DNA of 64,000 nucleotides. It comes from Zygnema cylindricum (lineage: Eukaryota; Streptophyta; Zygnematophyceae; Zygnematales; Zygnemataceae). Below the pieces are notes generated by a model that saw only the letters and a list, made by a program, of their open reading frames with translations, was not told the DNA's origin and did no database searches. Location: positions 1 through 64,000 of the forward strand of contig JBBHKE010000807.1 of the NCBI GenBank assembly GCA_037447655.1, written 5' to 3'. Positions 15,301 through 49,912 of the stretch are shown one piece after another (position 1 is the stretch's first letter; every line of letters starts with the position of its first letter). The position numbers and the translations under genes were made by a program.

Positions 15301-15447
15301 ACGTCTCACCCGTCCACTAACTATTCCCCAAAACCGTTTCTTACATAGAGATCCTGCCATCATACTTTCCTTGTATATGAAGCCAGCTCCATTGAATATG
15401 GGCACCCTAGATGGTGGGCCAATAACCTGCAACTTTGAGACCTCCAT
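12396..15447 (-). pseudogene. Copia A Gag-Pol remnant (truncated within RT)
   Basis: Reading leftwards from ATG at 15447: Gag (MEVSKLQV..., to about 14806), a CCHC knuckle beginning CHFCKKLGHYMA near 14520, and a protease core DSGASMH near 14290. The GAG-pre-integrase segment MLWHKRLGHVNL...CAQGKAH follows near 13850, then an integrase core with SDNGGEY near 13510 and NGVAERLN, then the start of RT (WELVDCPP-type). The similarity stops at FA.VV near 12400, so the palm, RNase H, PPT and 3' LTR are gone. Several stops and frameshifts make it inactive. It is the outermost element: its 5' LTR is split by the gypsy insertion. Confidence 0.85.
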
Positions 15448-15768
15448 AGGTCCTCAGAGTAGGCAGCTCACTCGAAGCCTCTAGGATAACCCTGACCCCT
15501 TTGTGTTTCGGCAAGAATAATTGCCACCCTGGCAAACAAAAACTCTGACCACCTTCACCCTTCTGAAGGCAAGACTCCCCTGAGTCGATAGCAAAAAGAA
15601 TCTCTAAATTTGCTCTCGTGAACAATTAGTTATGGAGAGTCAAAAAAGACCTTTTGTACAGAAGCTCCCTGGGAGAGAACCCCTTATCTACCAATTTTTT
15701 CTAAGTCCTATCTCTCTCCAAAACTATATCTACAGATGTACAGCACCAATCATATTACACTGCCGTAC
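15428..15768 (-). mobile_element. Copia A 5' LTR, inner part (U5 side)
   Basis: The LTR end TGCAAC... at 15428 contains the Gag ATG. The sequence runs to GTAC at 15765-15768, where the gypsy element begins. The other part of the same LTR continues at 54793. Together the parts give about 1,070 bp, the family length. The adjoining primer site is altered (TTATTGGCCC instead of TTATGGGCCC). Confidence 0.85.
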
Positions 15769-16046
15769 TGTCGAGCGTTCCGGAAAGATCAGAGGAGGGC
15801 CCACTGCCCGGGTGATTGGCATTGGAGTCTTGCAAACACCCTTCCCCAGAATGCGAATGCTCCCCACAACCATGCTTGCGCTCAATGCTGCCCGCCTTGT
15901 TCCTGTGAGCATGCATGCAAAGGTGGGGATGGGTGCTTGGGGAGGCCGCAAAGATATCCCCTCCCCCCTCTCCTTCCCCCTCTTGGCCTGGGGAAAGGAG
16001 GGAATTCTTAGAGGTGGAGCCAGGTTCTTGATTTGTGACTATCTGT
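15769..16046 (-). repeat. Repeat R1 at the gypsy outer edge
   Basis: Begins TGTCGAGCGTTCCGG (plus strand) and closely matches 17237-17505 over about 265 bp. In the minus direction it ends GCTCGACA next to the GTAC duplication. It follows the 1,188 bp repeat with ATAGTCACA at the joint. It may be the 3' end of the gypsy LTR (making that LTR about 1,466 bp) or a leftover of a tandem copy. Confidence 0.7.
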
Positions 16047-17234
16047 TGGAAGCCTAACATAAATCCTCTCAAAATCCACTATTCTGGTACAAAAGGTTCT
16101 GGTAATCGACCCCGGAAGAAACCCAACCAGAGCCCCAAAAAGGACTACCAAAGAGAGAACCTAGGTGCTTCCACTCAGAAAAATGAAAGGATAGAAATAT
16201 AAAAAATGTTGTCTCAGAATTAACAATATCACCTTGCCTTTAGAAAAATAGAGAAATAAAGTTAGAGTGTGGAATAATAGCAAGCGAGCTCAACCTACCC
16301 TCAAAACGTAACGTGGACAATCAAAAGGAGACGAAATCTCCCCTTGAAAACCCCGGAACAGGTAAGGCCTCCTTAACTCCTCGATTTCCGCGACCCGGAA
16401 CCGGCAAGACCCTTCTTGGTTTCCAACAAACACGAGTTCCCAAACCGCCCAAAACAGGAAAGACGGTGCCAACCACCCAACCGGACTACGATTTCCACAA
16501 AAGACGGATGCAAACCAAGATGGCAATAGGGTCACAATTACATGCAAAACAAAAGTTCTCCACAAGAAAGTTTGATGGAATTTCTAGGGTTTTTCTCAGG
16601 AGACAGTACTAAAACAGCAACCTGTCTCCCTCGGCCTCAAGTGCCTTATACAAGCAAAGTTTGTCCTACCGATAGTACCAAAGTCAAAGCAATACCAGGA
16701 GCCAATCACCGGCCAAGAATTTTTATCGTACGGACATAAGACAAAACATGTTGTACTACACTAGGGGCAAAAATTTAGGCGGCTATCTCCGGCTAGATTA
16801 GAAGCCACGTGGTTTTCTATGACACAATTCTGAGCAACAAAGTGCTAAATTGACGTGAAACGCCTAACTTTGACTCACATTAATAAATGCTCTATTCGGC
16901 TGGTGGACCTGAACTAACGTCCTACTGATAGCCAACAGAAAAATCTACAAGAATATCCCAAAAGTTACGTGGCGTTCCACAATGTAGCCCCCAATGGGAC
17001 AGTTGGCAACTGGTCACATGTAACAGGATGGTAATCTTTGGAATGGAGTAACTTTGTCGTCCGGCCTCCGGTAGGCGCCAAATAAAGTGCGTTCCGTTCA
17101 GTTAAGAAAATAGAAGAATTTGGTCCGGCTGAGTGCGCTCCTTTCCCAGTACTTTAATGACCGTACAAAGGAAAAAGGGCCCGGGAATCCTTGGTAAGAT
17201 AAAAGGGGTGCCTGTGAAGCACATGAGCTTGACA
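16047..17234 (-). repeat. 1,188-bp gypsy LTR copy (left)
   Basis: Minus-strand TGTCAAGC...GGCTTCCA with TG/CA ends. It has exactly the length of the copy at 53605-54792 and differs from it at only a few bases, which marks it as the 3' long terminal repeat (or most of it) of this element. Confidence 0.85.
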
Positions 17235-17236
17235 GC

Positions 17237-17834
17237 TGTCGAGCGTTCCGGAAACATCAGAGGAGGGCCCACTGCCTGGGTGATTCGCATTGGAGTCCTG
17301 CAAACACCCTTCCCCAGAATGTGAATGCTCCCCACAACCATGCTTGTGCTCAATGTTGCCCGCCTTGTTCCTGTGAGCATGCATGCAAAGGTGGGGATGA
17401 GTGCTTGGGGGGGCCGCAAAGATATCCCCTCCCCCCTGTCTTTCCCCCTCCTGGCCGGGGGAAAGGTGGGAATCCTTAGAGGTGGAGCCGGGTCCTTGAT
17501 TTCCCCCCTCTTAGTCAACTAGGGACTAAGACTTTTGAATAATTACCCCCCCTAATTCGCAGTTCTCGCAGAACCAAAGAGCACAGGGTTTAGGACGAGG
17601 GTCCCAAGAGGAGGGGAGACAAGATTGATGCCAACACTGGTCGCATCAATCACAGACCAGTACAGAATTCTGGGAGGGAGATGAGATGGCTCCATTGCTC
17701 TCTCTCTCTCTCCTTCAGTGACTACAACAAGTATGGGGGCGAGAGAGAGAGAAGAGATAGAGGCAGGCTGCCTACATTTTCTTTTCTAATAAATTTAGAC
17801 CTAGAAAATATACTAAAAACTACTTATCTCAACA
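17237..17834 (-). repeat. Second LTR-like unit, TGTTGAGA...GCTCGACA (598 bp)
   Basis: Begins in the minus direction with TGTTGAGATAAG directly after a polypurine tract and ends GCTCGACA two bases before the 1,188 bp repeat. Its last ~265 bp equal repeat R1. Its first ~150 bp resemble the start of the copia C LTR (TATTTTCTAGGT.TAAAT, CAGCCTGCCTC, GTAGTCACTGAAGGA). Position after the PPT suggests it is a 3' LTR, but the arrangement beside the 1,188 bp unit is not standard. Confidence 0.55.
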
Positions 17835-18963
17835 TTCCGCCCATCCTTCCCTTCCAGTGTGAAGACCCCCATATTGGAGACTTCCACTACCTTCAAAATC
17901 ACCCTCCCCGCTGAAATGTCCAGAGTGTCCTTTTTCTGTTGCATCCGATACACGAAATCCCTGGGTAGAAATCGCAGTTCCCGCGGGACAAAATTCCCGC
18001 TCCGGCGTTGCAAATACCAGAGTTGATCTCGGTGCTGAGCTGCTTGTAAATTCCCCATGGCCAGAGGCATTTTCCGGTGAAATACCTTGGCCCTGTCGGC
18101 AATCAATTTTTCGACCGTTCCCTTGTTGTCCATCTCCGGAAGAACCACTGCTTTGGCCGAGGCAGCGCCGGAAGGATGGGATGACGTCCGAACAAAATGA
18201 AATATGGACTGTAAGAGTGGAGGGATGCTTGCCGGTTGAATCGGTACCCCATGGCGATCCAAGGCACCCTTCTATCCCACTCTCCTAGATCCTCTTCCAC
18301 AACATATTTACGCAGTGACCGCTTCACTGTCTGCACGCACCTTTCGGCCAAACCGTCAGCTTTTGGGTGGTCTCGGCTGGTCAAGCAGTGGTCGATGGTG
18401 CACAATTCCAACAAGTTGGAGAATTCTCCGGCAAATTCGGAGCCCTGGTCGGTCAGAACTTCGGTTGGTGCCCCAAATTGGGAAAGCACCCTCAGCAAGA
18501 ATGCGTCTGCAATCGCCTTGGACTCCTTCCTAGGTAAGACCACCAATTCGATCCACTTGGAAAAATGCTCTATCATTACCAACACAAAGCGGTTCCCTCG
18601 TCTGCTAGTGGGGAGAGGACCCAGCAGATCTAGAGACCACCGATAAAACATCCCCTTGATGGGAAGGGAATGAAGCTGAGCACCTCTTTTTTTGTCAAAA
18701 GCTGCTTTGACTCGGTCGCAGGAGGAACACGTCTGCACAATCCGGTTGACTTGGGTCCGCAACCCGTGCCACCAGTACGATCGTGCGACCAAGAAGGTGG
18801 TCGATTTCTGCCCAAAATGGCCACACTGCTGGTGAAGGTTAAAAATATGAGTCTCCCTGTCGGCCGGGGGAGGATCCACTTTCCTCGTCCCATCTGCCCA
18901 CTTCCGGATTAAGATGCCCCTTTCCCACTCGTATGCCGCTATTCGTGTTTGCACCCGAGATAA
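17813..18963 (-). pseudogene. Gypsy integrase with C-terminal GPY/F-like region
   Basis: The zinc-binding part has a His pair (HQQCGH region) and CSSC. The catalytic core shows WSLDLLGPLP (first Asp), LTDQGSEFAGEF (second Asp) and a Glu in DGLAERCVQ, the D,D,E triad of retroviral-type integrases that join cDNA to target DNA. The C-terminal part (RDFVYRMQQ... to GKDGRN) looks like the GPY/F barrel and is reached by a frame change near 18260. No chromodomain was recognised. It lies directly downstream of RNase H, separated by an in-frame TAG at 18964-18966. Confidence 0.8.
17835..17855 (-). promoter_or_regulatory. Polypurine tract of the gypsy element
   Basis: Minus-strand GGAAGGGAAGGATGGGCGGA, 20 of 21 purines over the tract, immediately before TGTTGAG. 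This is the expected plus-strand priming site. The integrase frame reads through it. Confidence 0.7.
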
Positions 18964-19863
18964 CTACACTCTTGACAAATGCGAAAGAGGGAAACCTTGT
19001 TGGACAGATTGGAGTGCATCGGGATCGTTCTGAATATCTTTCCGTCCGGCCCCTATTGGCGCCTGCACCACCACGTCTGCAGAGAAAGTAGACATTTCCC
19101 CCCCATATTGAGGAAGCCAAATAAAGGTAGAGGAAGCTCGAATGAGTCCCAAACTGATTTCAGGATCCTCATCATGGCGGGCCCCGGTGGAATCTCTAGT
19201 GGAAGGGTCAAGATTTCTGCTAAGTCCGTCGGCATTCCCATGAATCTCTCCGGCCCGGTGGATTATGTCGAAGTCATATTCCTGCAGTATTAACACCCAC
19301 CTGGCGAGCTTGCCAGTGAGCTTGTTATTCTCCATAATCCACTTAACAGGCTGGTGATCCGTGATCAGAGTGAAATGGACTCCGTATAGGTATGGTCTGA
19401 AGTGTTGGATGGCCCATACCGCCGCGAGTAATTCCATGTGATAGCTGCTGTAACTCCCCTCCGCTCGGTTATTACTTATACTGGCGTAAACTACCACATA
19501 TTCGGCACCAGCATCATCCAGATGGGCTAAAACAACTCCCAATCCAAACCGGCTCCAATCAGTGTAAAGGAGGAAGGGTCTTTGGTGATCAGGCATTCGG
19601 AGCACTGGGTGTTGCTTCAGGGAATCCTTGAGGAACTGGAAGGCAATCTGTTGCTCCTCCGTCCACTGCCACTCCTGGTCTTTCCGCAGCAACTGGTTCA
19701 GAGGCTGAGCGTGGCTGCTAAATTCAGGGATGAATCTCCGATAATAGTTAGCCAGGCCTAAAAATGTGCGGAGTGCAGAGACATCCTGAGGAGGGGGTAG
19801 GGCATCAAGGCTGCAACTTTGACCATATGGGGACCCACTGTCCCGGGTGTAACTTCGTGTCAT
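18964..19863 (-). pseudogene. Gypsy RT thumb and RNase H
   Basis: Begins in the RT connection (DVSALRTFLGLANYYRRFI) and continues into a Ty3-type RNase H. The four acidic residues are in place: YTDWS (Asp near 19558), YHMELLAAVWA (Glu), LITDHQPVKW (Asp) and HGNADGLSR (Asp). It degrades the RNA of the RNA/DNA hybrid during reverse transcription. A frame change near 19863 separates it from the RT palm. In this family the two form one chain. Confidence 0.88.
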
Positions 19864-20654
19864 AGGTAAATAATTTTCTGCACCCCAAAAATTCCCTTAC
19901 CCGGGTGACATTTCCAGCCCGCTGCTTGGAGAGCTCGGAGTACAATCTGTATGTGCTCGAGGTGTTCCTCGAAGGTATTCGACAAGATAATAACATCGTC
20001 GATATAGCACCATGCACAATCAATCCCCGGGAGTGCCTCGTCCATGGCACGTTGGAATTTGGCAGGCGCATTTTTGAGCCCGAATGGCATGTAGAGCCAT
20101 TCATACAACTTGGACCCTGCCCAAAAAGCTGTCCTTTCCTGGTGCTTTCGCTCCATCGCGATCTGGTGGAACCCATTCTTCATGTCTAATGTGGAGTAAA
20201 TGGTGGCCCCGGCCAGCAAGTCAAAAATCTCTTCCGGGGTAGGCATTGGGTATCGATCAGGTACAGTTGCCGTGTTAAGCATTTGGTAATCTCCACACAT
20301 CCGAAAGTCTACCGTTTTCCCAGATGAGTCCTTCTTGGGTGGGAGAACAGTTGGAGACGCAAATCCATGGAGTCTGGTACTTTCTTGAACCAATCCTGCT
20401 TCTACCAGAGTTTGTACCTTTGCAGTGATGAACTCCTTTTCCTTAAAACTGAGAGGGTACTGCTTCTGCCAAACAGTAGACGTCTCGTCTATTAAATCGA
20501 TTCGAAAAGGGGTTCCTTTGTAGATGCCTACGTCGGTATCTGACCAAGAGAACACTTGTTTGTTCTTCTCCAACAGGTCGGAGAGCTGGGCCTTTTGCTG
20601 AGGGTCCAACTGCTCCCCTAAGGTCGAATCCATCTTTCCGGGTTCCACCGCTGC
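19860..20654 (-). pseudogene. Gypsy reverse transcriptase palm/fingers
   Basis: Typical Ty3 RT: PIDLI-like start region, VQESTRLHGFASPTVLPPKK, DFRMCGDYQMLN, YSTLDMKNGFHQIAM (motif A Asp), FGLKNAPAKFQRAM (motif B) and CYIDDVIIL (motif C, Tyr-Ile-Asp-Asp near 19994-20005). It synthesises cDNA from the element RNA. It is in the same frame as the methyltransferase C-terminus upstream, separated only by a TAG at 20655-20657, so both belong to one Pol polyprotein. Confidence 0.9.
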
Positions 20655-22249
20655 CTACGCCTCTGGGGGTCTACCCCAGCGAGAGATATCGAATTCCATC
20701 CCTACCTGCGGGTCTACCTCAGCTCCTCCCGTTAGAATGCTGCTGCTAACAACGTCCGCTAAGCTGTCTCTCTCCGAGCCTCCGCTCCCCCCCACTGAGG
20801 AATCCCTTAATTTCGGTAAAATGCTGGGACTGGAAAATTTTGATGATAAAAACTGTTTTCTCGCCTCCCTCCCCCCCTCAAGCTGCAAGTGGGCCTGCAC
20901 CGCTAACAACTTCGGAGCTTGAAGGTAACGATCCCTTGATTGCGGAGACTGTAGGCTAGAGAAGGCCAGAGAATGTGTTATCACCCATGTTATTACATTT
21001 AGATCCATGCTTTGTCCGAGTAGGCTGCACCTCTGGGGGTCTGATATACCTGGTGCCGCCGTACTGGCTGGTTGGAATCCCATGGCTTGTTCTCGTTCTT
21101 CCACCGTTGGCGTTGTCCAAACTCCACTTTTGCTGTCAAATATCATTCCTACCGCTCCCTTTCGATATGCATGGCTATTAGGGAAGGAAACCAATGTTGG
21201 CGTTGCTCGCCGTGGTGCTCCTGGTTGGTTGCACTGGAAGAATGGAGGACGATCAGCCTTAGTTACGGGAGTAGCCATCGGCCCTGTCCCTAAAATTTGT
21301 TGCAGGGTAATCTGGGGATCTGTTTTGTGGTTTTGTAAGAGCTTGTTCAGGACTAACAGAGGTATCAAATTGGTCCAGTACGCCCGAACTCTGTGAGCTC
21401 TGGATCCCAGTTGCGCCGCATCGAAAACAAGTGGAGTCCTAGAATCTGCTTGACTTTATTCCAGCTATTTGCGACTTGTTTTCTCTTATCATCTCCCGGG
21501 TGGACATTCTCCAAAACGTACCCCACTGGTTGGTCTTGGGATTGCTGCAGCCAGGAAAGTAATTTGATCATCTAGAAGAAGGTTCGACTTTTGCTATCCT
21601 GATGTCCCTCGCTTTTCTCGGCTAGAGAGTATCCTTGACATGGCCATCCTGCAATTACCAAATCTACTCGCTCCAGCATAGCGAGATGTGGCTTAAGGAT
21701 AATGTCTTTATTTTGCGGAACACTCCGGTGAGATCTGCCGATGGCGGATACCGGAAGTTGATGGGGATACAATTGGTGGAGTTGTTGGAGTCGGTATTCA
21801 CTGACGGCCCGAGCATCCGGTGAAATTTCCACAGCCACATATGACTCCACTTTATGCCCAGCTTTCAAGACAGTTTCGAGGTCCAAGCTAATTCCACAAA
21901 ATAAGGATAATATCCGGAGTCCAGAATCCGGGATAGATAATGACACCACTTGTCGATTGAATTTTTGATTTTTGGGCGGAACTTCCGAAGATTCCAACCG
22001 AGGTTTTTTTTCCTTTACAAAAACAACTGTCAAGGATTTGTCCACTTCCCGCCGAAGTTTTGTTATTTGTAATAATCTCTTCACGTATCCCTCTTCCCAC
22101 CGCTTGGAAATAGGGAATTGGTATATTATGTCTGCAATATCAGTAGCGCTAGCGAGCTGTTCCGTGGGTATGTTGGTGGCATAGACGGGATAACATCCTG
22201 CGACAGGAGCATTATCTTTCCCCCTATTCCATAGATTCAGGGGAACCAC
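20655..22249 (-). pseudogene. C5 cytosine-DNA methyltransferase domain inside gypsy Pol
   Basis: Motifs run in the usual, non-permuted order. Motif I is LRILSLFCGIS (near 21920), with an acidic motif II residue in VAVEIS. Motif IV is DLVIAGWPCQGYS, with the catalytic Cys codon at 21638-21640. Motif VI is YVLENV (Glu codon 21509-21511). Motif VIII is DAAQLGSRAHRVRAYWTN (about 21360-21415), and motifs IX-X are TPTVEEREQAMGF and LLGQSMDLN (about 20980-21110). Such enzymes transfer methyl from S-adenosylmethionine to cytosine C5. The copy has one in-frame TAG (21572-21574) and one frame change near 21410, so it is dead. About 110 residues before motif I and about 100 after motif X are unassigned. 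The non-permuted order excludes a DRM-type origin; the donor family is unresolved. Confidence 0.85.
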
Positions 22250-23628
22250 TGTTGTTTTTGGAAGATTCAGTTTCGCATATGCGTGCGTGTATTTGCTTGC
22301 TTACGTAATTACCGGAGTTAATGTGGAGGTTTGAACGGATTTGCGGATTGGGGGTTTTTGCACGAGTAAATTAATTAACTAATTGAGTGGAGCGAAATGC
22401 GCTGAACAATGGACGGCGGATCGCGAAGCGATCCGATTTGAAATATTCGAAGTGTTTGAAAAAGTACGGCCGCCATACGAAACATAATGCGACAGACCGC
22501 ATTTATTAAATGTGACGCCGCCAGTACGGAGCGTCGTATTTGACACGTGAGATGTACGGCAAAGTACGTAGTAACGGTACGGACTAATTTGGATAGCTTG
22601 ACGAGGTTTCGACAAGTGGATTTTTCTTATGACCACGCGGCGCGACACCAAGGGTGCCGATTAAGAGTGACGGACGGCGGATATAGTCCGCCGAGATTTT
22701 CTATGTAGTGGTGACACGAAATCGCGTCAATCACACGATATTTATTTTTGGACGTTCCGGATTGCTTGCCAAGTGATTCGTGGTACACGTGGAAGGCGGA
22801 TGGCGTCCGCCGATATTTCCAAGGGACCACATTGTTTTTTATGACGCATTATCTAGTGGACCGTACATATGCGATGTCGGTTCACTACGTGGACTTATCG
22901 ACAAATGACTAAGCAAGTTGTCGCTTATGACGCGTATTTTGCGGACGCGTCCGTGTAAATATTTGATACAACATTGTTTTGTCTTATGTGTATTATTAAT
23001 TAGTATTGATTATGACATTTGTTATTTAAGTGATCAATTAGGGTTTTCGACAGTTTAATTTGTGTGTCTTTATTTGTCGTTTATGCAGACAAGTGTACGC
23101 TTACGATTGCTAGGCTTTCAGGTGTACGCTTAAGATTAATTTATTCTTAGTGATGGTATATTATGGTTAAATAGGACTAAATGACAGTTATGTAATGTAT
23201 GTTAGTTATTTTGACACTTAGTGATTTGTTAACAGCTCACAAGTGTATATATAGGTTTGAGCTTCATTAGAACTTTAATCATCAATGCTGGTTAGTAAAG
23301 TGGGGACCGAAGATGTAGTATTTTAGGGTTGCCGATTAGGTCATGCACTTTGAATGATATAATGATTATACTTTGATTATACTCTTGTTTATGTGTGATG
23401 CATTTGTGTGTTATTATTTATTTATGTTTTTATATATGTTTGATATGCATTGTTTATGCATTTGTCCTAGGGTTTGTTTATGTCGATTATTCCATGAAAC
23501 CCTAAATGTTGTTGTATGTTAAATGGAGGATGCATTTCAAATGATTGTTCGTCGACCTATTTTTGGCTTAGCTTTTTGCATGATAGTTTGGGTCGCTTCT
23601 GCGGTCTATTTTAGACCAAAGAACAACA
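22250..23628. mobile_element. Solo-LTR-like insertion between protease and methyltransferase
   Basis: 1,379 bp with ends TGTTGTTTTTGG...CCAAAGAACAACA, flanked by ACCAC at 22245-22249 and 23629-23633. TG/CA ends, a short inverted terminal repeat and a 5-bp duplication fit a solo LTR; a small TIR transposon is the alternative. No coding region inside. Taking it out restores one frame from protease into the methyltransferase. Confidence 0.75.
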
Positions 23629-24340
23629 ACCACCACCTTGACTCTTTCTGGATCCTCAAGATCCCGAACAGTAAACTGCTCCTTCCACACACTTAATCCC
23701 ATATTCATCCTTGTCCAAGTGGCCATTCCCAATAATATCTCAAACTGCTTACCTTCCATCACCAAGAAAGGAAGCTGAATTTGAACCTTTTGACCTGCGT
23801 CGTCGGCGAACTCTATTAACATAGCTTTCATTATTCTGTGTGTTTGTTGGCTCCTACTGCTAACAGTACTTAGGCAGATGTCACTGGGAAGATTTCCGAT
23901 CGGAGTTCTTCAGGCATTTGCAGCAGAGCCGATGTGGTGATTAGATTTGGGAGTGCTCCTGTATTGACAACTGCGTCTTGATACCCGCCGTATCCGTTGA
24001 GTTTAAAATTCCCCGTCCGGTTGAGAATTAGCGCCACAGATAACGTTTTGTAGTCCATATCCATCATAGGGGTCTTTGGGTCTGCTGACCAAAAAACGGA
24101 TCTGGCCTGATCGGCCCGGTGTTTCTCCCCTCCTGAATGGATTTCCTCTCCGAGGGCCTGGATGAGAACTTCCTCCGGCAAGTTATGGGAAGAGGCCAGT
24201 GTTTTCACGTGAGTGATAGCGTAGGGCATTAGATGCCTTACTAACATCACTGCTGGTTTGGAGGAAGGAGGTTGAATTTTTGGCGACGAACTGAGGGAAT
24301 CTAGTGGTTTCGCCGATTGATTTTCCTTCTCCCCCCCCCC
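23629..24340 (-). pseudogene. Gypsy Gag end/aspartic protease, active-site Asp replaced by Asn
   Basis: Two frames together give a retropepsin-like segment. YQDAVVNTGALPNLIT near 23960 corresponds to the family's DTGA active site, but the catalytic Asp codon reads AAT (Asn). FEILLG near 23740 matches the C-terminal hydrophobic motif. The protease would release Gag and Pol parts. With Asn it should be inactive. It lies just upstream of the methyltransferase. Confidence 0.65.
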
Positions 24341-25396
24341 TGAAACTCTGAGACCTCCATAAGTCCTCAGAGTGGACAGCTTTCAAGAAGCCTCTAGGAT
24401 AATCCAGACCCCTTTGTGTTTCAGCAAGAATAACGGCCACCTTGGCAGACAAATACTCTGACCACCTGCACCCTTGTGAAGGCAAGACTCCCCTGAGTCG
24501 ATAGCAAAAAGAATCTCTGAATTTGCTCCCCTGAGCAGTAAGTTATGGAGAATCAAAGTTGACCTTTTGTACAGAAGCTCTCTAGGAGAGAGGGTCCTAT
24601 CTCCTAACTTTTCTAAGTCATATCTCTCTCACAGACTCTATTTACTGACGTACGGAACCAATCAGAATACAGTTCTGTATGCAAAAATAGAGCTGCCGGT
24701 GTACTTTATGTACGGACATTGTACGACATGGCCTAAATGTCGACACATGTCATATCCGGATTCGGTGCCATAATCTCCGGAGATTCCACGGTCCAATGTA
24801 ATTACGCCACGCGTCATCCGATGTGGCGATGGCCACAAACCGCCGAAATCTTCTTCCGCGATCTCGGCGCTAATTCCGGCCGTCCGATTAGAATCGAAAT
24901 TAATCGTAGCCATAATAAATACGTGCGCGGTATTCGTTTCACTTAAGAAATAAATGCGCGGTATTGATTTCTTGCTCGTACCGTATTCCGTACTTATACA
25001 TTACCGGATCTATGTATACCGTAAACAATTACAGTTAAATGATTTATCATACGTTTATATGTTTAAATAACTATCAAAATATATACTACGTAATGTTATT
25101 CCTAGAGTTAACCACTAAGGCTAGCGGCTACTTCCTGTCTGTCGACCGGTAGGTACAAGGATCAATACCTGTCGCCGGCACATTCATTTTAAATAAACAA
25201 ACCCTAACTAATATAAATTTCCCGTAAACCTCTGGATAGCCTAGGTAGCTATGGCTCTAGCTCCCTCTCCAAATTCTCAGTGACTGCAACAAGTTTAAGA
25301 GTTTGGAGAGAGAAGTTAGAGGTAGACTGCCTCGGCTTCTTTCTATATTTCTATTTAGATCTAGAAAATACTACAAATGTACCATTAATTTCTACA
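24341..25396 (-). repeat. Copia B 3' LTR
   Basis: Minus strand TGTAGAAATTAATGG... to ...CAGAGTTTCA. A purine tract (AAAATAAGGGGAG) lies directly before it. The U5 end carries a Gag-like ATG (ATGGAGGTCTCAGAG). Confidence 0.88.
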
Positions 25397-25409
25397 CTCC
25401 CCTTATTTT

Positions 25410-28400
25410 CTAGTCAATCTTTAATTTCAGACCGCACTTCTCCTTGCAGAAATTTAGCTTAGGGGAAAGCACAGGTTTGGTCATCATATCTGCTACCATC
25501 TCACTATCTAGTCTAGACTCTGAACTGATTATTTTGTTTTCTACTTTCTCTCTAACAAAGCTGAGTCTAATGTCCATGTGTTTAGCTTTAAAATGATGTT
25601 TAGGATTGGCAGAAATAGCGATTGCTGCTTGATTATCACAAAAAAAATTCAACACACCACTCTTAAGGTGACCAAGCTCACCAAGCAAAGACTTGACCCA
25701 CATCAATTCTTTTACAACAGAGCAAGAGGCCATATACTCAGCCTCCATGGTGGACTGAACAATAACCTTTTGCTGTTTGCTACTCCAAGAGCAAGCCCCA
25801 TCACCCACATATAATACATATCCAGAAGTGCATCTCCTCATCGGAGCATCACCATAACTGGCATCACTCCAAGTAGTGATGTCAGTATTCTCCCCACCCA
25901 AATGCAACCATAGATCCCTAGTTCCCATCAAATATCTAAGGACTCTCTTAGCTGCCTCCCAATCCCTCTTAGTGGGAGCATTTAGACTTCTACTCAGCAC
26001 TCCTTCAGCTGTAGCTAAATCCGACCGAGGAAAATTCATAAAATATATTAGACTTCCCACTACTTGCCTGTAAGGAATAGTCTGCATGAACTTCTGTACT
26101 TCAGGAGATAATTCGTTGTCTAAAACTATGACTCCTTCTTCCTCACTCCCCTCACTTCCCTTCTTCAACTCCATTGAAGTTGTAGAACTATTAGCTTTAT
26201 CCATTTGAAATTTTTCAAGCATGTTCCCTATTTCTTCCTTTTGAGTCAATCTTATAATTTTTCTTTTTCGGTCTCTCTCTACTTGAATTCCCAAAATATA
26301 TTTTGCTTCCCCCATATCCTTCATTTCAAATCTCCCCTTAAGATTGGTTTTCAGTTTATTAATTTTTTCCATTGATTTACTTAAAACAAGCAAATCATTA
26401 ACATAAATTGCAATAAATATAAAACCTTCCTCATCTTCGAAAACATAGATTGAGTGATCTGAGCTGATCCGGATATATCCCAGACCGGTAAGAAACTCAT
26501 CAAGCTTCTTATTCCACTGCCGAGGCGCCTGTTTCAAACCATAAAGAGATTTAATCAGCCGGCATACCTTACTCTCCTCTCCTTCCTCTACAAACCCTTC
26601 GGGTTGTCGCATGAAGATCTCCTCTTCCAATTATCCATGCAAAAAGGATGTCTTGATGTCCATCTGGTGCACTTCCATGTCTTCCGCTGGTGCCAGGCTG
26701 AGAAGTATGCGGACGGAGGGAAATCTGACCACTGGGGCAAAGGTTTCATCGTAGTCAATTCCCTCTTTTTGTGTAAATCCCTTTGCCACTAATCGGGCCT
26801 TGTAGCGCTCGATTGTGTTATCTGGGTTCAGTTTTAATTTGAAGACCCACTTATAACCGATTGGTTTTCGGTGAGGTGGACAATCCACCAGCTCCCAAGT
26901 ATCGGCTGCCATAATTGAGGCCATCTCCCCATTGATGGCTGTCTTCCACCGGTTTCTTTTTGGACAAGTCATCGCCTCTCCATAAGTTTGAGGTTCATCT
27001 TGATGAGATAGTTTAGTTACCTTGTTATTAACCTGTTTTTTTTGTAGTCTTTTGCTACTTCTCCTTCCCCGCTCAAAATCTGAGGCTGGGATAGATGGTT
27101 CTCGTGGATTCATTCGAACAAACTCGGCTTCTCCCCTATCCCTTGATTCCGAATCAATTTCCACCATGTATTCCGCTTCGGGTAGAGTTGTCACTCGAGT
27201 TTCCACAGCCGAGTCCTTTTCGGTCTGATTTGTATCTTCAAGAATGTCATCTTCTCTAAAACCTGGATAGTTAGGGAGCTCAAAGTTATCGGAATTTTCT
27301 GACTCAAATCTGATTTTTAGTGACTTTGTATATTTGAAGGGATCCATAGACTTTCCTTCATCCATAACTACTAGATGCTTTACTAAGATTATATCTTCCC
27401 TTTTTTATATCATAAACTCTATATCTTTTAACATCCTCATCATATCCTAATAAGTATCCCGGTTTTCCTTTATGATCTAGCTTCCAATTAGACCGATCTG
27501 TATCTAGACTGAATACTTGACTGCCAAAAACCTTTAAGTAAGATATGTCTTGTATTCGACTGGTCCATCTCTCTTAAGGTGTTTGATCTTTTATAGCTGA
27601 GGTAAGAACTCTATTTTTGAGGTAATTAGCGCAGTTCATTGCTTTTTCCCAGAACCTTTTTCCTATCTTCTTATCCGACAACATAATTCTAGCACTATCA
27701 CTTAGTGTCTTATATAATTGCTCAGCTACCCCATTCTGTTCCGGGTATTCTGCAACTGTCTTTTGGTGTTGGACCCCATCTTCCCTCAGAAAATCCTCAA
27801 ACTGGTTAGAAGTATACTCTCCACCATTGTCACTCTTTATTCTCTTGATTGGAGTTTCATGAAGTTTTTTGCTCCATGCTTTATATTGTCTAAAACAATC
27901 CTGAGCTTCCGACTTGTTTTTCAAAAAATACACTCGGGAATACCGAGACCAATCATCAGTGATAGTCATCATAAATCTCTTCCCCCCCGGTGAGGGCACT
28001 TTAGCTGGTCCCCAAATATCTGTGTGTACTAGATCTAGAATTTTTTTCCCTTATAGGTGGCTGATTTAGGAAAGAGTAATCTGTGTGCTTTACCTTGAGC
28101 ACATCCAATACTATCACTTATATCATCACTCTCACTGAACTGAATCCCTTCCACCACTCCCATCTTTTTCATCTCTCTTAACTTATCTAGATTCACATGC
28201 CCAAGCCTCTTATGCCACATCATAATATCATGAACACCAGCATAATAAAGTTATTTCGTTTCATCACTTAAGATGAGCCTAAACATCCCATGGATACCTT
28301 TCTCAACAATGAAATAGACATCCTCCTCAAAACTAGCAGTAAAGACTCCTTCCCTAGTGCTAGTGCAAAAACCCTTATCATCTAATACGGATGTAGAGAT

Positions 28401-29434
28401 AAGGTTTTTGTTCAGCTCCGGAATAAACAATACATCGAAGAATGTTAATATGGATGTCTTTCCTTCTACTAACACTTTCAGATCTATCGATCCTACAAGA
28501 GTAGTGGTGACTATCCTCCCATCCCCGTACTCTATCTCTACGGTAGGAATCTTTCTTATCTTAGTGAACAGGTGCCTATCCTTACACATGTGCATGGAGG
28601 CACCTGAATCTATAATCCAGCCTGCTTCACCTTTCAATCCAGTGTAAGCACATTTCTGCCTTCGTGGAATTTCAACCTCATTTTTTTCCTCCAACTCCTC
28701 ATCCAAAAAGAGTTGATCGTCTTCTTCCTCTGATTCTGCCTTAAGTACCTGTGTGACAAGGGCCTTTTTCTTTCCTCTCGGGGTACCACCGGTCTGCCCC
28801 TCTTTTAACCAAAGCTCGGTTAGCTTACTGCACTCAGCCATATAGTGCCCGGTTTCTTACAAAAATGACATAAACCTTTGGGAGCCCTTGGTTCGAACTC
28901 ATCAGCCTGTTTTTTTCTGCTCCCTACCCCCATAGTTTTCGACTGGTTTCCGGGAATCTTTGTTCCTCTAATAGGTCGTTGTTGCCAAGGCTTGGCCACT
29001 CTTTCCTCCCCTTCGGATCTCAATCGTATTCTCTCGAACGAGAATCATCCCTACCACTGAGTTCCATATCCACCTTGAGTCCGACAAGTCCTATACACGG
29101 TTGACTATGTTCTCGAACACATTAGGTAACTTCATAAGTAAACAATTAACCTTTTCATAATCACTAAAAACTTTTCCCTAACTCTCTAACTCCATGAAGA
29201 GTGTAGCAAGTTCATTGCAAAAATCCAACATATTTCCCCCTTTGTATACATACTCTTTAACTTTCTGATCAGCCAAATGTTGTTGCTGAATCGTACCACT
29301 TCGGTACATCTCTATGAGAGCCATCCAAAGATCGGATGCCCTTCTACCTGCAAATGAGGACATGCAAGTCCTTGAGTGAGATGGCGTCGGATGAAGTTCT
29401 TTGCCGCCATATTGTTGAAATCCCAGGTTTCAGT
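25410..29434 (-). pseudogene. Copia B Pol and Gag C-terminal part
   Basis: RT/RNase H (25410-26630) is nearly open: MRQPEGFVEEGEES, LYGLKQAPRQWNKK, AIYVNDLLVL (Tyr-Val-Asn-Asp instead of YVDD), WSDASYGDAPMRR, HMDIRLSFVREKV. A TAA interrupts at about 26628. Upstream come integrase (SDNGGEYTSNQFE, 27574-27999), the pre-integrase CAQGKAH block (28035-28223), protease DSGASMHMC (28251-28841), a CHFCKKPG knuckle (near 28860) and Gag pieces, all split by frameshifts. It ends at 29434, where copia C is inserted, and continues at 35872. Confidence 0.88.
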
Positions 29435-30481
29435 TGTTGAAATTTATAGATTTCTAGAGTATTTTCTAGGTTTAAATATGGTTTTATAAAAGGAAAAAGA
29501 AAAGGACGGACAGCCTGCCTCCACCTCCGCTCTCTAGCCCCCCTACTTGCTGTAGTCACTGAAGGAAAGAGAGAGAGGTTGATCCATGGCTGCCTTAGTT
29601 CAACAGACAGCTATTTTTAGTAGGTTACTAAAAATATACTTGACGGACCAGAGATTTGATCACGGTACCTGCGGTTCGTCAAATCGTCCGGTAGCGGTCA
29701 GCTTTATCCTAATAGACTAGGACCAATGCTAAGTGCTATGGTATGTGATAGATATATATTTAGTTCGAAAGGATAAAGTTCATTTAACTAAAACTGTTTA
29801 CGGCGTACATATATACAGTTTTATAAAGTACGTCGTACGACGCTAATTCAAAACGGATACCACGCATTTTATTTCTACATCGGAACAAATATCGCGCAAG
29901 TATTTATTCCGGCCAAGATTACGTTTCGCATATAATCCAACGGCGCACATCATCGCCGAAATCCCGGAGTGGTCACTTTGGCATTTAGTGACGTGGCATC
30001 ACCTGGCGCCACGTGGGGAGACATCATTCGGTCGCGGGAATTCCGAGGAACGTACGGATGAGTGGAAAGTATACACGCGTCCACTTATGGCCTTGTCGTA
30101 CAGAGGCCGTACAGAAGGTACATCGGCAGTAGTACTTTCTAGTACTATACAGTTTTGTGATTGGTTCGTACAGGCAGTAGATAGGAGCTGTGAGAGGGAA
30201 TTAGGAAAAACTAGGACTTAGCAAAATTTAGGTAGATAGTCCTCTCTCTCAGAGAGTTTGTATAAATTGGCATCTTTGCCATCCTATAACTTATCGCCTG
30301 GTTGGCCGTTTTCAGTGTTTCTTTTTTCTACGGACTCAGGGGAGTCCAGGCTACACAGGGGTGCAGTCAAATTGTCAGTTTGCCTTCTTGGGCAGCAGTG
30401 GTTGTGGCTTAAAGTGGGTTAGTTAAATACTATCTAGAGGCTTCCTGTATTCTGTGGTCCAATGGAGGACACAGAATTGCA
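29435..30481 (+). repeat. Copia C 5' LTR
   Basis: TGTTGAAATTT...GAATTGCA. A TATA box (TATAAA, 30261-30266) follows a CTCTCTCTCAGAGAG palindromic block, so transcription should start near 30290 and U3 is nearly the whole LTR. The Gag ATG at 30462 lies 20 bp before the LTR end. Confidence 0.92.
30261..30266 (+). promoter_or_regulatory. TATA box of copia C 5' LTR
   Basis: TATAAA in TTTGTATAAATTGG, repeated at 35651-35656 in the 3' LTR. It is the only strong TATA box late in the LTR and fits a short R region. Confidence 0.65.
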
Positions 30482-33400
30482 GGTTATGGGCCCACCCTCT
30501 AGGGTGCCCACCTTCAATGGATCTGGGTTCATCTATTGGGAAGCCATGATGATGGGAGCTTTGTGTGAAAAAAGATACTGGGGTATCGTCAGTGGACAAG
30601 TGAAACGTCCACCTTCAGGAACTCCACCAGGATTTGGGGGAGTAAGGTTTCCTGCAACAACGGCTGCCTCGGCGGAGGAGGCAGATGATGGGGACAGCAG
30701 TGTGTCCGAAAATGGGAAAGGGAAGGAGACACCCCTTACTCCTATTGCCACAGTATCAGGAGCGGCAATTGTGAAGACCGTGGAGAACGATACTCAAATG
30801 TGGGAGGATGTAAACATGGCTGCCAAGAACTTCATTTTGAGGCACCTCACTCAAGGTTTGGCCACTCCTCATCTTCACATTTACAAGGCAGAGGAATTGT
30901 GGGAGAGTTTGGTGGAGATTTATAGAGCTGGAACTATTCAGGAGCTCCAGTTGGCTGAGCAAAAGCTATTGAGTTACACTTACAAAGGAGGAAAGATGTT
31001 AGATTACTGTAATGATCTTTCTTGTTTGTATATGGAAATGGAAAGTGCCGGGTGGACAGGTACAATGAAAATGAAAGTTAACACCCTTATTATGAAATTA
31101 CCAGATGAGTTCGAAAACATAGTGTACCGAGTACAGGGAATGCCTGATAGTTCATGGAAATGGAACACAGTAGTCAGGATGATACTTGTGCAGGAAAACA
31201 CAATGGAGATTAGGAGAGGAGGAAAGAGCATTCAAGCTCTAGCAGCAGGAGGGGACCGATGGGGGAAGGATCCGAAGAAACCTTATAGAGGGGAAAGAGA
31301 TAATTCTGGGGGACAGAGGCCCCCAAAGGGTCTTTGTCATTATTGCAAAAAGCCGGGACACTTTATTGCAGATTGTGTCAAGTTGTCAGAGCTGAGGCTC
31401 CAAGAAAACCGTGGAGGGGGTTCTTCCGGAGGGAAGAAAAAGGCACTTGTGGTTACAAAAGTGTCAGGAGAAATCGAGGATGAGTCATCTGAGGAGGATG
31501 GGGAGCTTCTTCTTGACGAGAGTCTGGAGGAGAAGGAGATCCCTCGGAGGCAGAAGTGTGCCCTTGGAGCAATTCGGGAAGCTCCACAGGAAGGATGGAT
31601 CATCGACTCAGGTGCATCCATGCATATGTGCCGTGATAAAGAACTCTTCACTAAGCTACGAAAGATTCCTACTGTAGAGATAGAGTATGGGGATGGGAGA
31701 GTGGTTACTACAGATCTAGTGGGATCAGTAGATCTGAAAGTCTTAGTGGAGGGTAAGACCTCTATACTTACATTCTTAGATGTACTTTACATTCCTCAGT
31801 TGAGTAAAAATCTTGTCTCTACGTCTGTGTTAGATGACAAAGAGTTTGATACCTTCACCAGGAAGGGAGTCTTTACAGCTAAGTATGGGAATGAAGTTTA
31901 CTTCACAGCAGATAAGGGTAGCCAAGGAATGTTTAGGCTTAACTTGAGTAATGAAAAGAAGAATGCTTACTATGTTGGTGTTCCTAAGGTGATGATTTGG
32001 CATAAGCGTTTGGGGCATGTGCATTTAGATAGGTTAAGGGAAATGAAAAAGCTTGGGGTAGTAGATGGCATTCAGTTTGGGGATAATGAAATAATGGATG
32101 ATTGTAGTGGTTGTGCTCAAGGTAAGGCTCACAGACTTCCCTTTCCCAAAGCCGCCACATATAGAGGTGAGAAAGTGTTAGATTTGGTCCACACAGATAT
32201 TTGGGGACCTGCAAAAGTACCTTCGGTTGGAGGAAAGAGGTTTATGATGACAATAACCAATGACTGGTCTAGATACTCTAGAGTCTACTTTCTGAAAAAT
32301 AAGTCTGAAGCATCCACTTACTTCAAAGAATATAAAGCTTGGAGTGAGAAGTTGCATGAAACCCCTATTAAGAGGATAAGGAGTGATAATGGGGGGGAAT
32401 ATACCTCTAACCAGTTTGAGGAATATCTGAGAGATGAGGGAGTGCAACACCAGAAAACTGTACCATATAACCCGGAACAAAATGGGGTAGCTGAGAGGTT
32501 GAATCGAACACTAGGAGATAGTGCATGTAGTATGTTGGCAGACAAGAAAATAGGAAAGAGATTTTGGGCAGAGGCAATGAACTGTGCCAACTATATTAAA
32601 AATAGAGTCCTTACCTCAGCTGTAAAGGGAGTGACACCTTATGAGAGATGGGTTGGAAGGAAACCTGATATCTCACACCTTAAAGTATTTGGTAGCCAAG
32701 TTTACAGTCTTGACACGGATAGGAAAAACTGGAAACTAGATGCTAAGGGAAAACCTGGATACTTTGTGGGATATGATGAGGATGTTAAGGGATATAGAGT
32801 CTATGACTTAGCAAAGAAAGATATCATTCTGGTCAAACACTTAGTTGTCATGGATGAAGGGAAGTCATTTGACCCCTTCAAATATACAAAGAAGATAAGG
32901 ATCAGATTTGAGTCCGAAAGTGAGGAGAACTCAGTCGTTCCCGAAAAAGACATGAGTGAAACTGTGATTACAGATTCAGGGGAGATCGAAGATACAGGAG
33001 ACTCACCGGAAACCTCACATACTCCTATGGACTTCGAGGAGATGGAAGAAGCGGGACAAGATACGGTTTTTATGGACAGGGGAGCCGATGAGACAGTGAG
33101 AAGAAATCCAAGACTTCCATCCATTCCAGCTTCGAAGTTTGAGGGAGGAAGGAGGAGCAGCAAAAGGATACAGGAAAAACAAGCTGCCCATAAGGTAACT
33201 AAGCTATCTCACCCAGATGAGCCTCAGTCTTACTTAGAGGCAGTGAATAGTCCAGAGAAAGAAAGATGGATTAGAGCCATAAATGATGAGATGGCTTCTA
33301 TCATGGAAGCAAATACTTGGGAACTAGCAGATTGCCCTCCAGACAGAAAACCTATTGGATGTAAATGGGTATTTAAACTAAAACTGAACCCAGATAATAC

Positions 33401-34811
33401 AATTGAGAGGTATTAGGCTCGATTGGTAGCAAAGGGGTTCACCCAAAAAGAGGGGATTGACTATGAGGAGACCTTTGCTCCAGTTGTTCGGTTCCCATCG
33501 GTAAGGATTCTCCTCAGTCTGGCCGCAGCGGAAGACATGGAAATTCACCAGATGGATATTAAGACTGCTTTTCTTAATGGTGAGTTAGAGGAAGAAATTT
33601 TTATGAGGCAACCCGAGGGGTTTGTGGAAGAAGGAGAAGAGAGCAAAGTGTGCAGGCTCATAAAGTCTTTATATGGACTGAAACAGGCTCCCCGACAGTG
33701 GAACAAGAAACTAGATGAGTTTCTCACCGATCTGGGATACATCCGGATCAGCTCTGACCATTCTATCTATATGTTTGAAGATGAGAATGGTGTCATTTTT
33801 ATTGCAATTTATGTGGATGATCTGCTTGTGTTAAGTAAGTCTTTAGATAATATCAATAGGCTAAAGAAAGATCTTAGGGGCAGATTTGATATGAAGGATT
33901 TAGGGGAGGCAAAATATATTTTGGGGATCCAAATGGAGAGAGATAGAGGGAAGAAGATTATCAGACTTACTCAGAAAGAAGCAATAGGTAATATGCTTGA
34001 GAAATTCCAGATGGAAAATGCTAACAGTTGTACCACTCCCATGGACTTGAAAAAAGTAAGTGATGGGAGTGTAGAAGGAGGAGTGATGATCTTAGACGAT
34101 CAGATGAGTCTAGAGGAGAGAGAGTTCATGAAGTCTATTCCTTATAGACAGGTCGTAGGAAGCTTAATCTATTTTATGAACTGTACCAGGCCGGACATAG
34201 CGGCAGCAGTTGGAGTACTCAGTAGGAGTCTTAATGATCCTAGGAAGAGAGATTGGGAGGCAGCCAAGAGAGTCATGAGATATCTGGTGGGAACTAGAGA
34301 GTTATGGTTGCATTTGGGAGGGGAGCATACTGATATCACCACTTGGAGTGACGCCAGTTATGGGGATGCACCTATGAGAAGATGCACTTCTGGATATGTT
34401 TTGTATGTGGGGGAAGGTGCTTGCTGTTGGAGCAGTAAGCAACAAAAGGTGGTTGCTCAGTCTACTATGGAGGCTGAGTATATGGCGTCGTGTTTTGCTG
34501 TAAAAGAACTAATGTGGGTGAAATCATTGTTACAAGAACTGGGATTTATGAAGGAGGGAGTGCATGAAATCTTTTGCGATAACCAAGCTGCAATTGCAAT
34601 TGCAGCCAATCCAAAACACCATTTCAAAGCAAAACATATGGACATAAGATTAAGCTTTGTAAGAGAAAAAGTTGAAAATAAAATTCTAAATCTTGTGTAT
34701 AGACCTGATGAAGAAATGGTGGCTGACATGATGACCAAACCTGTGCCCTCTCCTAAACTAAAATATTGTCGGGAAAAATGCGGGTTGAAAGAAAAATTAA
34801 AATTAGACTAG
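30462..34811 (+). CDS. Copia C Gag-Pol polyprotein, one in-frame TAG
   Basis: 1,449 codons from ATG 30462 to TAG 34809-34811, with a TAG at 33414-33416 in RT (Glu-Arg-Tyr-stop, where sister copies have Lys). Order: Gag (1-290); CCHC knuckle CHYCKKPGHFIADC (about 292-305); protease DSGASMHMC (Asp about 381); pre-integrase WHKRLGHV...CSGCAQGKAH (511-555); integrase with HTDIWGP, SDNGGEY and NGVAERLN (Asp about 578, Asp 642, Glu 678, D-D35-E spacing); RT from about 930 with LYGLKQAPRQWNKK and YVDDLLVL; RNase H with WSDASYGD, EAEYMA and DNQAAIAI; end CGLKEKLKLD. Integrase precedes RT, the Ty1/copia order. The ATG is chosen because sister elements share MExxELQVMGPPSRVP. A single base change makes this copy non-autonomous unless the stop is read through. 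Confidence 0.93.
30482..30496 (+). promoter_or_regulatory. Primer-binding site complementary to the tRNA-iMet anticodon arm
   Basis: The 15 bases right after the LTR, GGTTATGGGCCCACC, are the reverse complement of GGTGGGCCCATAACC. As I recall it, that is the anticodon stem-loop of eukaryotic initiator tRNA-Met. The primer would be an internally cut half-tRNA, as known for Drosophila copia and yeast Ty5. The site lies within Gag codons 8-12. The same bases follow the LTRs of copia B, D and E. Confidence 0.8.
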
Positions 34812-34824
34812 AAAATAAGGGGAG

Positions 34825-35871
34825 TGTTGAAATTTATAGATTTCTAGAGTATTTTCTAGGTTTAAATATGGTTTTATAAAAGGAAAAAGAAAAGGACGGA
34901 CAGCCTGCCTCCACCTCCGCTCTCTAGCCCCCATACTTGCTGTAGTCACTGAAGGAAAGAGAGAGAGGTTGATCCATGGCTGCCTTAGTTCAACAGACAG
35001 CTATTTTTAGTAGGTTACTAAAAATATACTTGACGGACCAGAGATTTGATCACGGTACCTGCGGTTCGTCAAATCGTCCGGTAGCGGTCAGCTTTATCCT
35101 AATAGACTAGGACCAATGCTAAGTGCTATGGTATGTGATAGATATATATTTAGTTCGAAAGGATAAAGTTCATTTAACTAAAACTGTTTACGGCGTACAT
35201 ATATACAGTTTTATAAAGTACGTCGTACGACGCTAATTCAAAACGGATACCACGCATTTTATTTCTACATCGGAACAAATATCGCGCAAGTATTTATTCC
35301 GGCCAAGATTACGTTTCGCATATAATCCAACGGCGCACATCATCGCCGAAATCCCGGAGTGGTCACTTTGGCATTTAGTGACGTGGCATCACCTGGCGCC
35401 ACGTGGGGAGACATCATTCGGTCACGGGAATTCCGAGGAACGTACGGATGAGTGGAAAGTATACACGCGTCCACTTATGGCCTTGTCGTACAGAGGCCGT
35501 ACAGAAGGTACATCGGCAGTAGTACTTTCTAGTACTATACAGTTTTGTGATTGGTTCGTACAGGCAGTAGATAGGAGCTGTGAGAGGGAATTAGGAAAAA
35601 CTAGGACTTAGGAAAATTTAGGTAGATAGTCCTCTCTCTCAGAGAGTTTGTATAAATTGGCATCTTTGCCATCCTATAACTTATCGCCTGGTTGGCCGTT
35701 TTCAGTGTTTCTTTTTTCTACGGACTCAGGGGAGTCCAGGCTACACAGGGGTGCAGTCAAATTGTCAGTTTGCCTTCTTGGGCAGCAGTGGTTGTGGCTT
35801 AAAGTGGGTTAGTTAAATACTATCTAGTGGCTTCCTGTATTCTGTGGTCCAATGGAGGACACAGAATTGCA
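34825..35871 (+). repeat. Copia C 3' LTR
   Basis: Same length as the 5' LTR (1,047 bp), preceded by the purine tract AAAATAAGGGGAG (34812-34824). It ends with the Gag-start sequence ATGGAGGACACAGAATTGCA, after which copia B resumes with TCAGT. Confidence 0.93.
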
Positions 35872-36209
35872 TCAGTATCATTCTCCTCGTTCCTCGGAAT
35901 AGGTGACATGAATGCCGAACCAGTTGCTATTGGTGTGGTCGTCTCCTTCTCCTTTCCTTTGTCCACCACCTCTCCTTCTTTTGTTTCCTCCGTTGAAGGT
36001 GGATCCTCTTTCCTAATGAATCTGCTTCCTCGAAACCCTGGAGGAATTCCAAGACTTGATGGACGCCCCAACCGTCCACTCTCTATCCCCCAAAACCTTT
36101 TTTCGCATAGAGCTCCTATCATCATACTTTCCCAGTATATGAATCCTGTTCCATTAAAGATTGGTACCCTAGAGGGTGGGCCCATAACCTTAAACTCTGA
36201 GACCTCCAT
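35872..36209 (-). pseudogene. Copia B Gag N-terminal part
   Basis: From ATG 36209: MEVSEFKVMGPPSRVPIFNG, then GFIYWESMMIGALCEKRFWG and a Ser/Thr/Glu-rich linker up to PRNEEND, where copia C interrupts. This frame is intact to the break. Its beginning lies inside B's 5' LTR. Confidence 0.9.
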
Positions 36210-37248: not shown

Positions 37249-37829
37249 TGCTTCCTCACTTTCTTGGTCGGATTCTGGCGCTGGCAGCGTTTTTGGTGTG
37301 TTATCCTCCGGGCGTTCCGCCAAATATTTTTCGAACCAGTCTTGGTTGTCACGCGTCTCTTCCTCCTTTGCTTGTTCCTCCATCTTCCTTGTTTTAGTTG
37401 TCCTATAATTTTCGAATCCGGGAGGCAGTTTCTTTGCGGCTGGTGGAGGTGGGTTTGTAGATTTTATCCCGAGACCTTTGTTGTCGTTCAGGATGACGGC
37501 CTTGGGAGTGAAGGACAAAGGTCTAGTAGCGTTCCTATTGTGGTCTCGTGGAGCGAGCTTTTGCCTGTCCCTTCGCTGCGCCAAGGTTGATTTGCAGAGC
37601 TGCCTGCGATTGTCCCCCACCCCGACATTCCAGGCTCCAGAAAAGAAGGTATGTGCGTGATGGGCCTTAAGAGGTTCCATGTCCCATCCCATCACCTCGT
37701 CACTGTATTCGCCCGCTGCGGTTTCCTGTTCAAGCTCCGCCAGCTTCTGTAGTACTTCGTGTTTTCTCTTGTGGAGTTTCTGGGCGGCCGTCAGAGCGGG
37801 AGTCCTCGAGGGCGATCCTAATCGCAGCG
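37249..37829 (-). pseudogene. Island of gypsy Gag/Pol linker between two copia insertions
   Basis: An open minus frame (start near 37695) that is basic and low-complexity (RRDRQKLAPRDHNRN..., PPPPAAKKLPPGFENY, KYLAERPEDNTPK) with no catalytic motif. It lies between the zinc knuckles (50135-50484) and the protease (23629-24340) once copia B and E are removed, so it is the Gag tail or a linker. Confidence 0.65.
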
Positions 37830-48839: not shown

Positions 48840-48852
48840 AAAATAAGGGGAT

Positions 48853-49907: not shown

Positions 49908-49912
49908 CAGCG

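Follow-up and report, generated by a model that had tools for sequence, protein, structure and literature searches.

Has a Ty3/gypsy retrotransposon taken a cytosine-5 DNA methyltransferase (MT) into its Pol polyprotein, and if so, what does the enzyme do there? The question is raised by a window of 64,000 nucleotides from the alga Zygnema cylindricum (positions 1 to 64,000 of contig JBBHKE010000807.1, assembly GCA_037447655.1), in which the original prediction had placed an MT between the protease (PR) and the reverse transcriptase (RT) of a gypsy element, all on one strand. This arrangement was borne out. A Pfam profile search matched PF00145 to the piece 21572-22300 on the minus strand (E-value 3.8e-5; score 23.7 bits, threshold 22), which contains LSLFCGI and WPCQGYS, taken by us to be motifs I and IV, respectively; the ENV motif is located past a TAG at 21572-21574. 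The remainder, 20655-21455 on the same strand, holds QLGSRAHRVRAYW and the IX-X region. By itself this piece has no Pfam match, but an independent polyprotein, P0001, aligns to it through its own MT part at 43% (E-value 2.7e-32), and the RT, RNase H and integrase of P0001 align to those of the window as well. The MT of the window is decayed, being broken by the TAG at 21572-21574 and by a frame change upstream of 21455; a further TAG (20655-20657) lies between MT and RT.

The MT sits in one Ty3/gypsy element, which is split by nested copia elements (Table 1). The element itself was inserted into a copia LTR, the halves of which (15426-15767 and 54798-55523) match 24339-24679 and 24682-25396. 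Two copia blocks, 24341-37248 and 37829-49907, separate its parts; the latter (copia C) is flanked by the target site duplication (TSD) CAGCG at both ends, whereas the former showed no clear TSD. Altogether four nested Ty1/copia elements were observed (24341-37248, 29435-35871, 37829-49907 and 38963-45122), of which that at 29435-35871 is young, with LTRs 99.6% identical and an open frame of 992 codons. The 316-aa Gag piece contains no Pfam gag domain, and the Gag/linker segment has no Pfam match. Since relatives (e.g. L016 and L022) have similar pairs of zinc knuckles upstream of PR, we assign this Gag to the Pol of the window. PR stays below the Pfam cut-off in the window and in its relatives; VVDTGA is present in 5/9 open frames scanned from related loci. 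The insertion between PR and MT has terminal inverted repeats of about TGTTGTTnTTTGG and flanks GTGGTT, both read by eye, and is probably a non-autonomous DNA transposon. Past this insertion, the similarity to copy L020 starts again at 22249, which explains why the MT had been predicted to end there. The C-terminal PHD-like finger present in relatives is missing in the window copy. At 17607-17834, the PHD-encoding Pol end of relatives is replaced by sequence that is partly similar to copia LTRs (70-76%).

Table 1. Features of the Ty3/gypsy element, in sense order, with positions in the window
Feature	Positions	Strand	Remarks
Whole Ty3/gypsy element, including nested insertions	15769-54792	-	Ends TG...CA; GTAC at 15765-15768 and 54793-54796
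Repeat A1, 5' end of element	53569-54792	-	97.5% to A2 over 1225 columns (53569-54793 against 16017-17235); 1194/1219 aligned bases identical
Gag (decayed)	49908-53524	-	Zinc knuckles 50443-50484 and 50135-50176
Gag/linker segment, 193 open codons	37249-37828	-	Between two copia insertions
Aspartic protease (PR) region	23628-24339	-	NTG in window copy, DTG in relatives
Insertion, ~1.4 kb, absent from copy L020	22250-23627		Boundaries and repeats read by eye
C5-cytosine MT domain and linkers	20655-22249	-	One internal TAG, one frame change, TAG before RT
Codon that is a stop (TAG/TAA) in 35/35 other rows	22121-22123	-	TAC in window; residue 60 of window MT piece
Reverse transcriptase (RT)	19860-20654	-	RVT_1 8e-25; Ty3-type, PDB 4ol8 6e-32
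RNase H	18964-19896	-	RT_RNaseH 9e-33
Integrase, H2C2 and DDE core (rve)	17818-18963	-	Domains from RT to integrase core span 20654-18103
Polypurine tract (PPT)	17503-17515	-	Read from sequence
Repeat B1	17237-17502	-	93.6% to B2
GC dinucleotide between B1 (...CA) and A2 (TG...)	17235-17236	-	
Repeat A2	16017-17234	-	Repeat comparison with A1
Repeat B2, 3' end of element	15769-16034	-	Repeat comparison with B1

To collect other copies, we searched the whole assembly (352.8 Mb) with the PF00145 profile. Out of 782 candidates 123 were scored and all 123 exceeded the cut-off, so that the number of matches, at least 123, is a lower bound. Stretches of 9.9 kb were fetched around each of the best 20 of these 123. 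In 15 of the best 20 loci, distributed over many contigs, RT comes after MT on the same strand, and PR directly precedes MT in 14 of the 20. In the domain table, loci L009, L011, L025 and L026 show PR-MT but no RT on the strand concerned, and L015 has no match. A chance insertion or a chimeric assembly might be suspected, given that the window copy taken alone is broken and nested. This explanation, to which we assign practically no weight, is refuted by the other copies, which carry the MT at the same place, and at least 63 polyproteins elsewhere have a related MT. The predicted capture of an MT by gypsy Pol, and its retention between PR and RT in many copies, are supported: neither outcome named in the original prediction as refuting it, a missing PF00145 match or a lack of other copies with the domain at this place, was observed. 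The order of domains in the copies is PR, stop codon, MT, RT, RNase H, integrase and PHD-like finger. A second subfamily consists of L012, L013, L023 and L024. L023 is a single open frame of 2395 codons. Its MT, RT, RNase H, integrase and PHD finger score above the Pfam cut-offs, whereas its zinc knuckles and a stretch resembling a protease do not reach them; L024 is almost identical. The PHD finger is clear in these two copies and degenerate in L014 and L027. L020 has a second MT (L020b; 59% identity) on the same strand, some 1.1 kb past its RNase H and with no RT of its own in the stretch, which we take to belong to another element. Taken together, Ty3/gypsy RT, RNase H and DDE integrase with a C5-MT constitute one multicopy family, of which the window holds a decayed copy.

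The stop codon in this order is an in-frame one between PR and MT. In the first set of copies it is present in all 15 other rows spanning the codon (14 TAG and one TAA; six rows do not span the position). We then drew 20 further copies from the 123, with the profile match starting at 43-57 as in the first subfamily, and found a stop in 20/20 (19 TAG and one TAA), in each case followed by CAA. In total, 35/35 rows have a stop (33 UAG, two UAA), these rows being related, some nearly identical, and representing about three sublineages. CAA follows in 33/35 and the next codon is mostly UUC. The prevailing context, UAG-CAA-UUC, agrees with five of the six positions of CAR-YYA in the type I readthrough consensus UAG-CAR-YYA as given in PMC3542737, and is thus one base off. 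Tobamovirus type I readthrough is alike in UAG followed by CAA-UU; in most copies here, however, the sixth base is C instead of A, and the stop divides Gag-PR from MT-Pol. The second-subfamily copies L023 and L024 have no such stop. Our reading of the UAG between PR and MT is that of leaky termination with predicted readthrough, and the conserved stop probably limits the amount of MT made. Alternatively, the stop may be a hard one, with MT-Pol produced from its own start or from a spliced RNA, or UAG may be read as an amino acid. We consider this unlikely. No convincing RNA structure was detected downstream of the stop (6 of 100 shuffles were equally good), UAG also occurs inside decayed copies and several copies have a Met codon about 19 codons downstream, all of which would suit the alternative. 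Yet the reading frame of PR continues into MT through the stop, no Met occurs in the 10 residues shown after it, Pol ends with TAA in 3/3 copies examined (L014, L023 and L027) and 0/35 other rows have a sense codon at this position, an absence that a sense reading of UAG would leave unexplained.

The catalytic domain of the MT is DNMT3-like, with an unrearranged order of motifs. Among solved structures, both its profile and its predicted fold are closest to DNMT3, the only DNMT3 in our MT tree being part of one DNMT3A. The phage profile phrog_116 also matches most of the domain (2.9e-22). Instead of WPCQ, motif IV reads WECQ, FECQ or FECA in L023, P0050, P0051 and P0063 (ECAD in P0063), with the catalytic Cys kept. 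For the MT of the host copies, dN/dS is 0.11-0.47 overall, pairs with saturated or near-zero dS being excluded: 0.14-0.47 for pairs with dS of 0.07-0.17, and 0.11-0.16 against L020b at dS of 1.6-2.3, which is near saturation. The corresponding values for RT(-RH), for pairs with usable dS and excluding L023/L024 (dS 0.004), are 0.05-0.22. When the window was compared with the nine type I copies having both domains (L010, L014, L016, L017, L018, L021, L022, L027 and L028), dN was 0.19-0.29 for MT and 0.05-0.08 for RT, dS being 1.4-2.9 or saturated in both. The MT is under purifying selection, but it evolves faster than RT, so that its constraint is the weaker of the two. This weaker constraint would be compatible with the MT being kept for some other role, such as nucleic-acid binding in the particle or methylation of RNA or tRNA. 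In the same direction points the earlier description of KnitGypsy-Dnmt3 of Klebsormidium nitens, the domain of which produced no methylation in yeast, a result its authors regarded as inconclusive, and of SymbioLINE-Dnmt, a retrotransposon of another class for which they raised RNA methylation (PMC5890265). Nevertheless, an alignment of 12 chosen MT domains shows no variation in the catalytic Cys, ENx and RxR, and DNMT2 is a far more distant profile match than DNMT3; we judge a role other than methylating the element's DNA to be improbable, if somewhat less so than a hard stop.

The predicted fold and the catalytic residues fit methylation of the element's own or of host DNA; the predicted and likely function is methylation of the element's own DNA. 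We favour, with some confidence, a family carrying a DNMT3-like MT in Pol, in which readthrough of the stop would set the dose of MT and the MT would methylate newly made DNA of the element. Most ribosomes would stop after Gag-PR and a minority would read through to give Gag-PR-MT-RT-RNaseH-integrase-PHD, by which the MT would enter particles together with RT at a low dose. In the particle or in the nucleus, it would methylate the new DNA of the element and possibly nearby host DNA, and the methylated copy could then escape the host's surveillance for foreign DNA that lacks methylation, or be accepted once inserted. The element might instead methylate host chromatin rather than its cDNA, thereby lowering its own copy number or gaining tolerance. 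The many copies are consistent with such a target, and the PHD finger could guide the integrase complex to nucleosomes that carry marks; for Pol of the window, L014, L023 and L027, observed/expected CpG (0.63-0.89) is only mildly low and does not separate the two ideas. To the chromatin target we attach little probability.

Relatives were sought in metagenome and genome databases. The window MT retrieved one polyprotein, the MT region of which, used as a query in turn, retrieved at least 63 including itself (P0001-P0063); this second search scored the 7980 candidates with most shared words, at lengths of 0.55-1.75 times the query. Among the names given, one, Chlamydomonas eustigma (P0063), tells an alga. 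These polyproteins are like the Zygnema family in having MT, gypsy RT, RNase H and integrase (INT), but their MT lies after RNase H, between it and the integrase, rather than between PR and RT. The orders among the 63 listed are RT-RH-MT-INT-PHD (46), RT-RH-MT-INT (7), MT-INT-PHD (3), RH-MT-INT-PHD (3), RT-RH-MT (2), RH-MT-INT (1) and one with MT matched twice. MT before RT occurs in 0 of the 63; all 60/63 that have RT or RNase H differ in order from the Zygnema copies, the order relative to these domains not being assignable in the other three. PHD is matched in 53 of the 63 listed, and the MTs are 31-41% identical to that of L014 (9/63 aligned). One gypsy polyprotein with MT, P0050, is labelled as coming from a Minisyncoccia bacterium MAG, probably owing to eukaryotic contamination of the bin. 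A protein search with the N-terminal MT piece alone gave nothing at an E-value of 0.01 among 383 candidates, perhaps because its query length excludes polyproteins. None of three IMG/VR scans with pieces of the window yielded a relative, and a further such scan, with an alignment as query, gave 15 partial, distant loci (27-41%). Phage records matched in 184 cases, below 60%; in the 25 of 184 listed, all were under 30%.

Host and database rows are split from each other in both the RT tree (70 rows; 100/99) and the MT tree (82 rows; 98/92). The host side of the RT tree also takes in Ty3 and the plus-strand RT of L026, a host RT whose strand lacks an MT within the fetched stretch; this placement carries a long-branch warning, and the MT may have been captured once or twice. 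The row nearest to the window is L017 in the RT tree (99/77) and L020 in the MT tree (100/99), and the two trees differ on L019 too. Since L020 is nearest to the window by dS in all five domains compared, we put the placement of the window in the RT tree down to decay; module exchange may be another source of the conflict.

The terminal repeats of the element are split. In the sense direction, the window copy has the plan A1-coding-PPT-B1-GC-A2-B2. The copy on C1344 has the same A1-coding-B1-A2-B2 plan (A1/A2 100% and B1/B2 99.6% identical) and the same GC spacer, and that on C1042 has PPT-B1-GC-A2-B2 (B1/B2 94.8%); two of the five copies checked, those on C1920 and C1374, show no repeats in the fetched ends. 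At L068 (C1042:281014-281653), a further stretch beyond B2 is 72% like the B1-A2 region of the C1042 copy. The exact junction GACAGCTGTC is found at the B1-A2 site in 6/27 stretches scanned, against 0.27 expected by chance, namely in the window, L010, L018, L022 and the almost identical pair L023/L024; one extra match lies inside a gene of the window. Target duplications are of 4 bp, GTAC in the window and TTGG in C1344. A DIRS, or tyrosine-recombinase, retrotransposon was ruled out by these TSDs and by the rve/H2C2 integrase. The B1-GC-A2 junction suggests that the integrase cuts an internal CA-GC-TG site of circular or concatenated cDNA. Transcripts running from A1 to A2 would be reverse transcribed into DNA with LTRs of the form B-GC-A, the joining of its ends would create an A-B joint, and a cut at CA-GC-TG would yield exactly the integrated form. 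Divergence of the repeats is uneven: A1 and A2 differ at 25/1219 positions (2.1%), B1 and B2 at 17/267 (6.4%), and the LTRs of the nested copias A and C at 75/1054 and 69/1053 (about 7%). The identity of A1 and A2 was accordingly rejected as a measure of the element's age, B1/B2 and the nested LTRs being more diverged. As nested elements cannot be older than their gypsy host, the A repeats have probably been homogenised; gene conversion would be our guess.

A gypsy element carrying a DNMT is an already known kind, and the precedents in a dinoflagellate and in Klebsormidium that the original prediction named do exist, DNMT-carrying retrotransposon lineages of both being described in PMC5890265. 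The closest named relative is KnitGypsy-Dnmt3, described there as having an intronless DNMT3-type MT inside gypsy Pol, several copies, purifying selection and, according to the legend of Fig. 4, the repeat structure of DIRS elements; the repeats of SymbioDIRS are given as A-coding-B-A-B. The Zygnema family shares with KnitGypsy-Dnmt3 the MT type and its inclusion in a gypsy Pol, the purifying selection and the DIRS-like repeats. Compared with that element as described, it has the MT after a conserved in-frame stop and between PR and RT, a PHD or PHD-like finger after the integrase, and at least 123 matches in 353 Mb. In dinoflagellates, SymbioDIRS-Dnmt3, which did methylate CG, and SymbioLINE-Dnmt have the MT in retrotransposon coding regions, inside Pol in SymbioDIRS (PMC5890265), but use DIRS (tyrosine recombinase) and LINE machinery in place of a DDE integrase with 4-bp TSDs. 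An orchid gypsy element has likewise captured a host-like modification enzyme, an AlkB m6A RNA demethylase, described as encoded in an additional ORF (PMC9289625), whereas here a DNA methyltransferase is part of Pol. New here are the conserved stop between PR and MT, the polyproteins with MT after RNase H, and split repeats combined with a DDE integrase and 4-bp TSDs.

Cytosine methylation is a standard host weapon against retrotransposons, so that an element which retains this kind of enzyme by selection reverses the usual roles in the arms race. More tentatively, and with distinctly less confidence than in the reading favoured above, one may envisage an algal gypsy in which the DNMT3-type MT, as the first domain of a readthrough Pol, would therefore be supplied at a fixed small dose per particle, the cDNA would be methylated before integration, and the DDE integrase would use the CA-GC-TG circle junction and not LTR ends; as the MT occupies two places in Pol in two branches, the module would have moved or been captured twice. 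The stop codon between PR and MT would predict the dose of the enzyme, the genome offers many copies and open frames suited to assay, and the open copies, together with the 63 relatives with another domain order, make the question of why a retrotransposon should methylate DNA directly testable.

Rfam at gathering scores gave 0 matches in the window. An open frame at 59988-60335, which may be a first exon, presumably resembles RPA3 (replication protein A, small subunit). Plus-strand exons at 960-7650, which by their motif look like those of a fibronectin type III protein, are rich in CT repeats.
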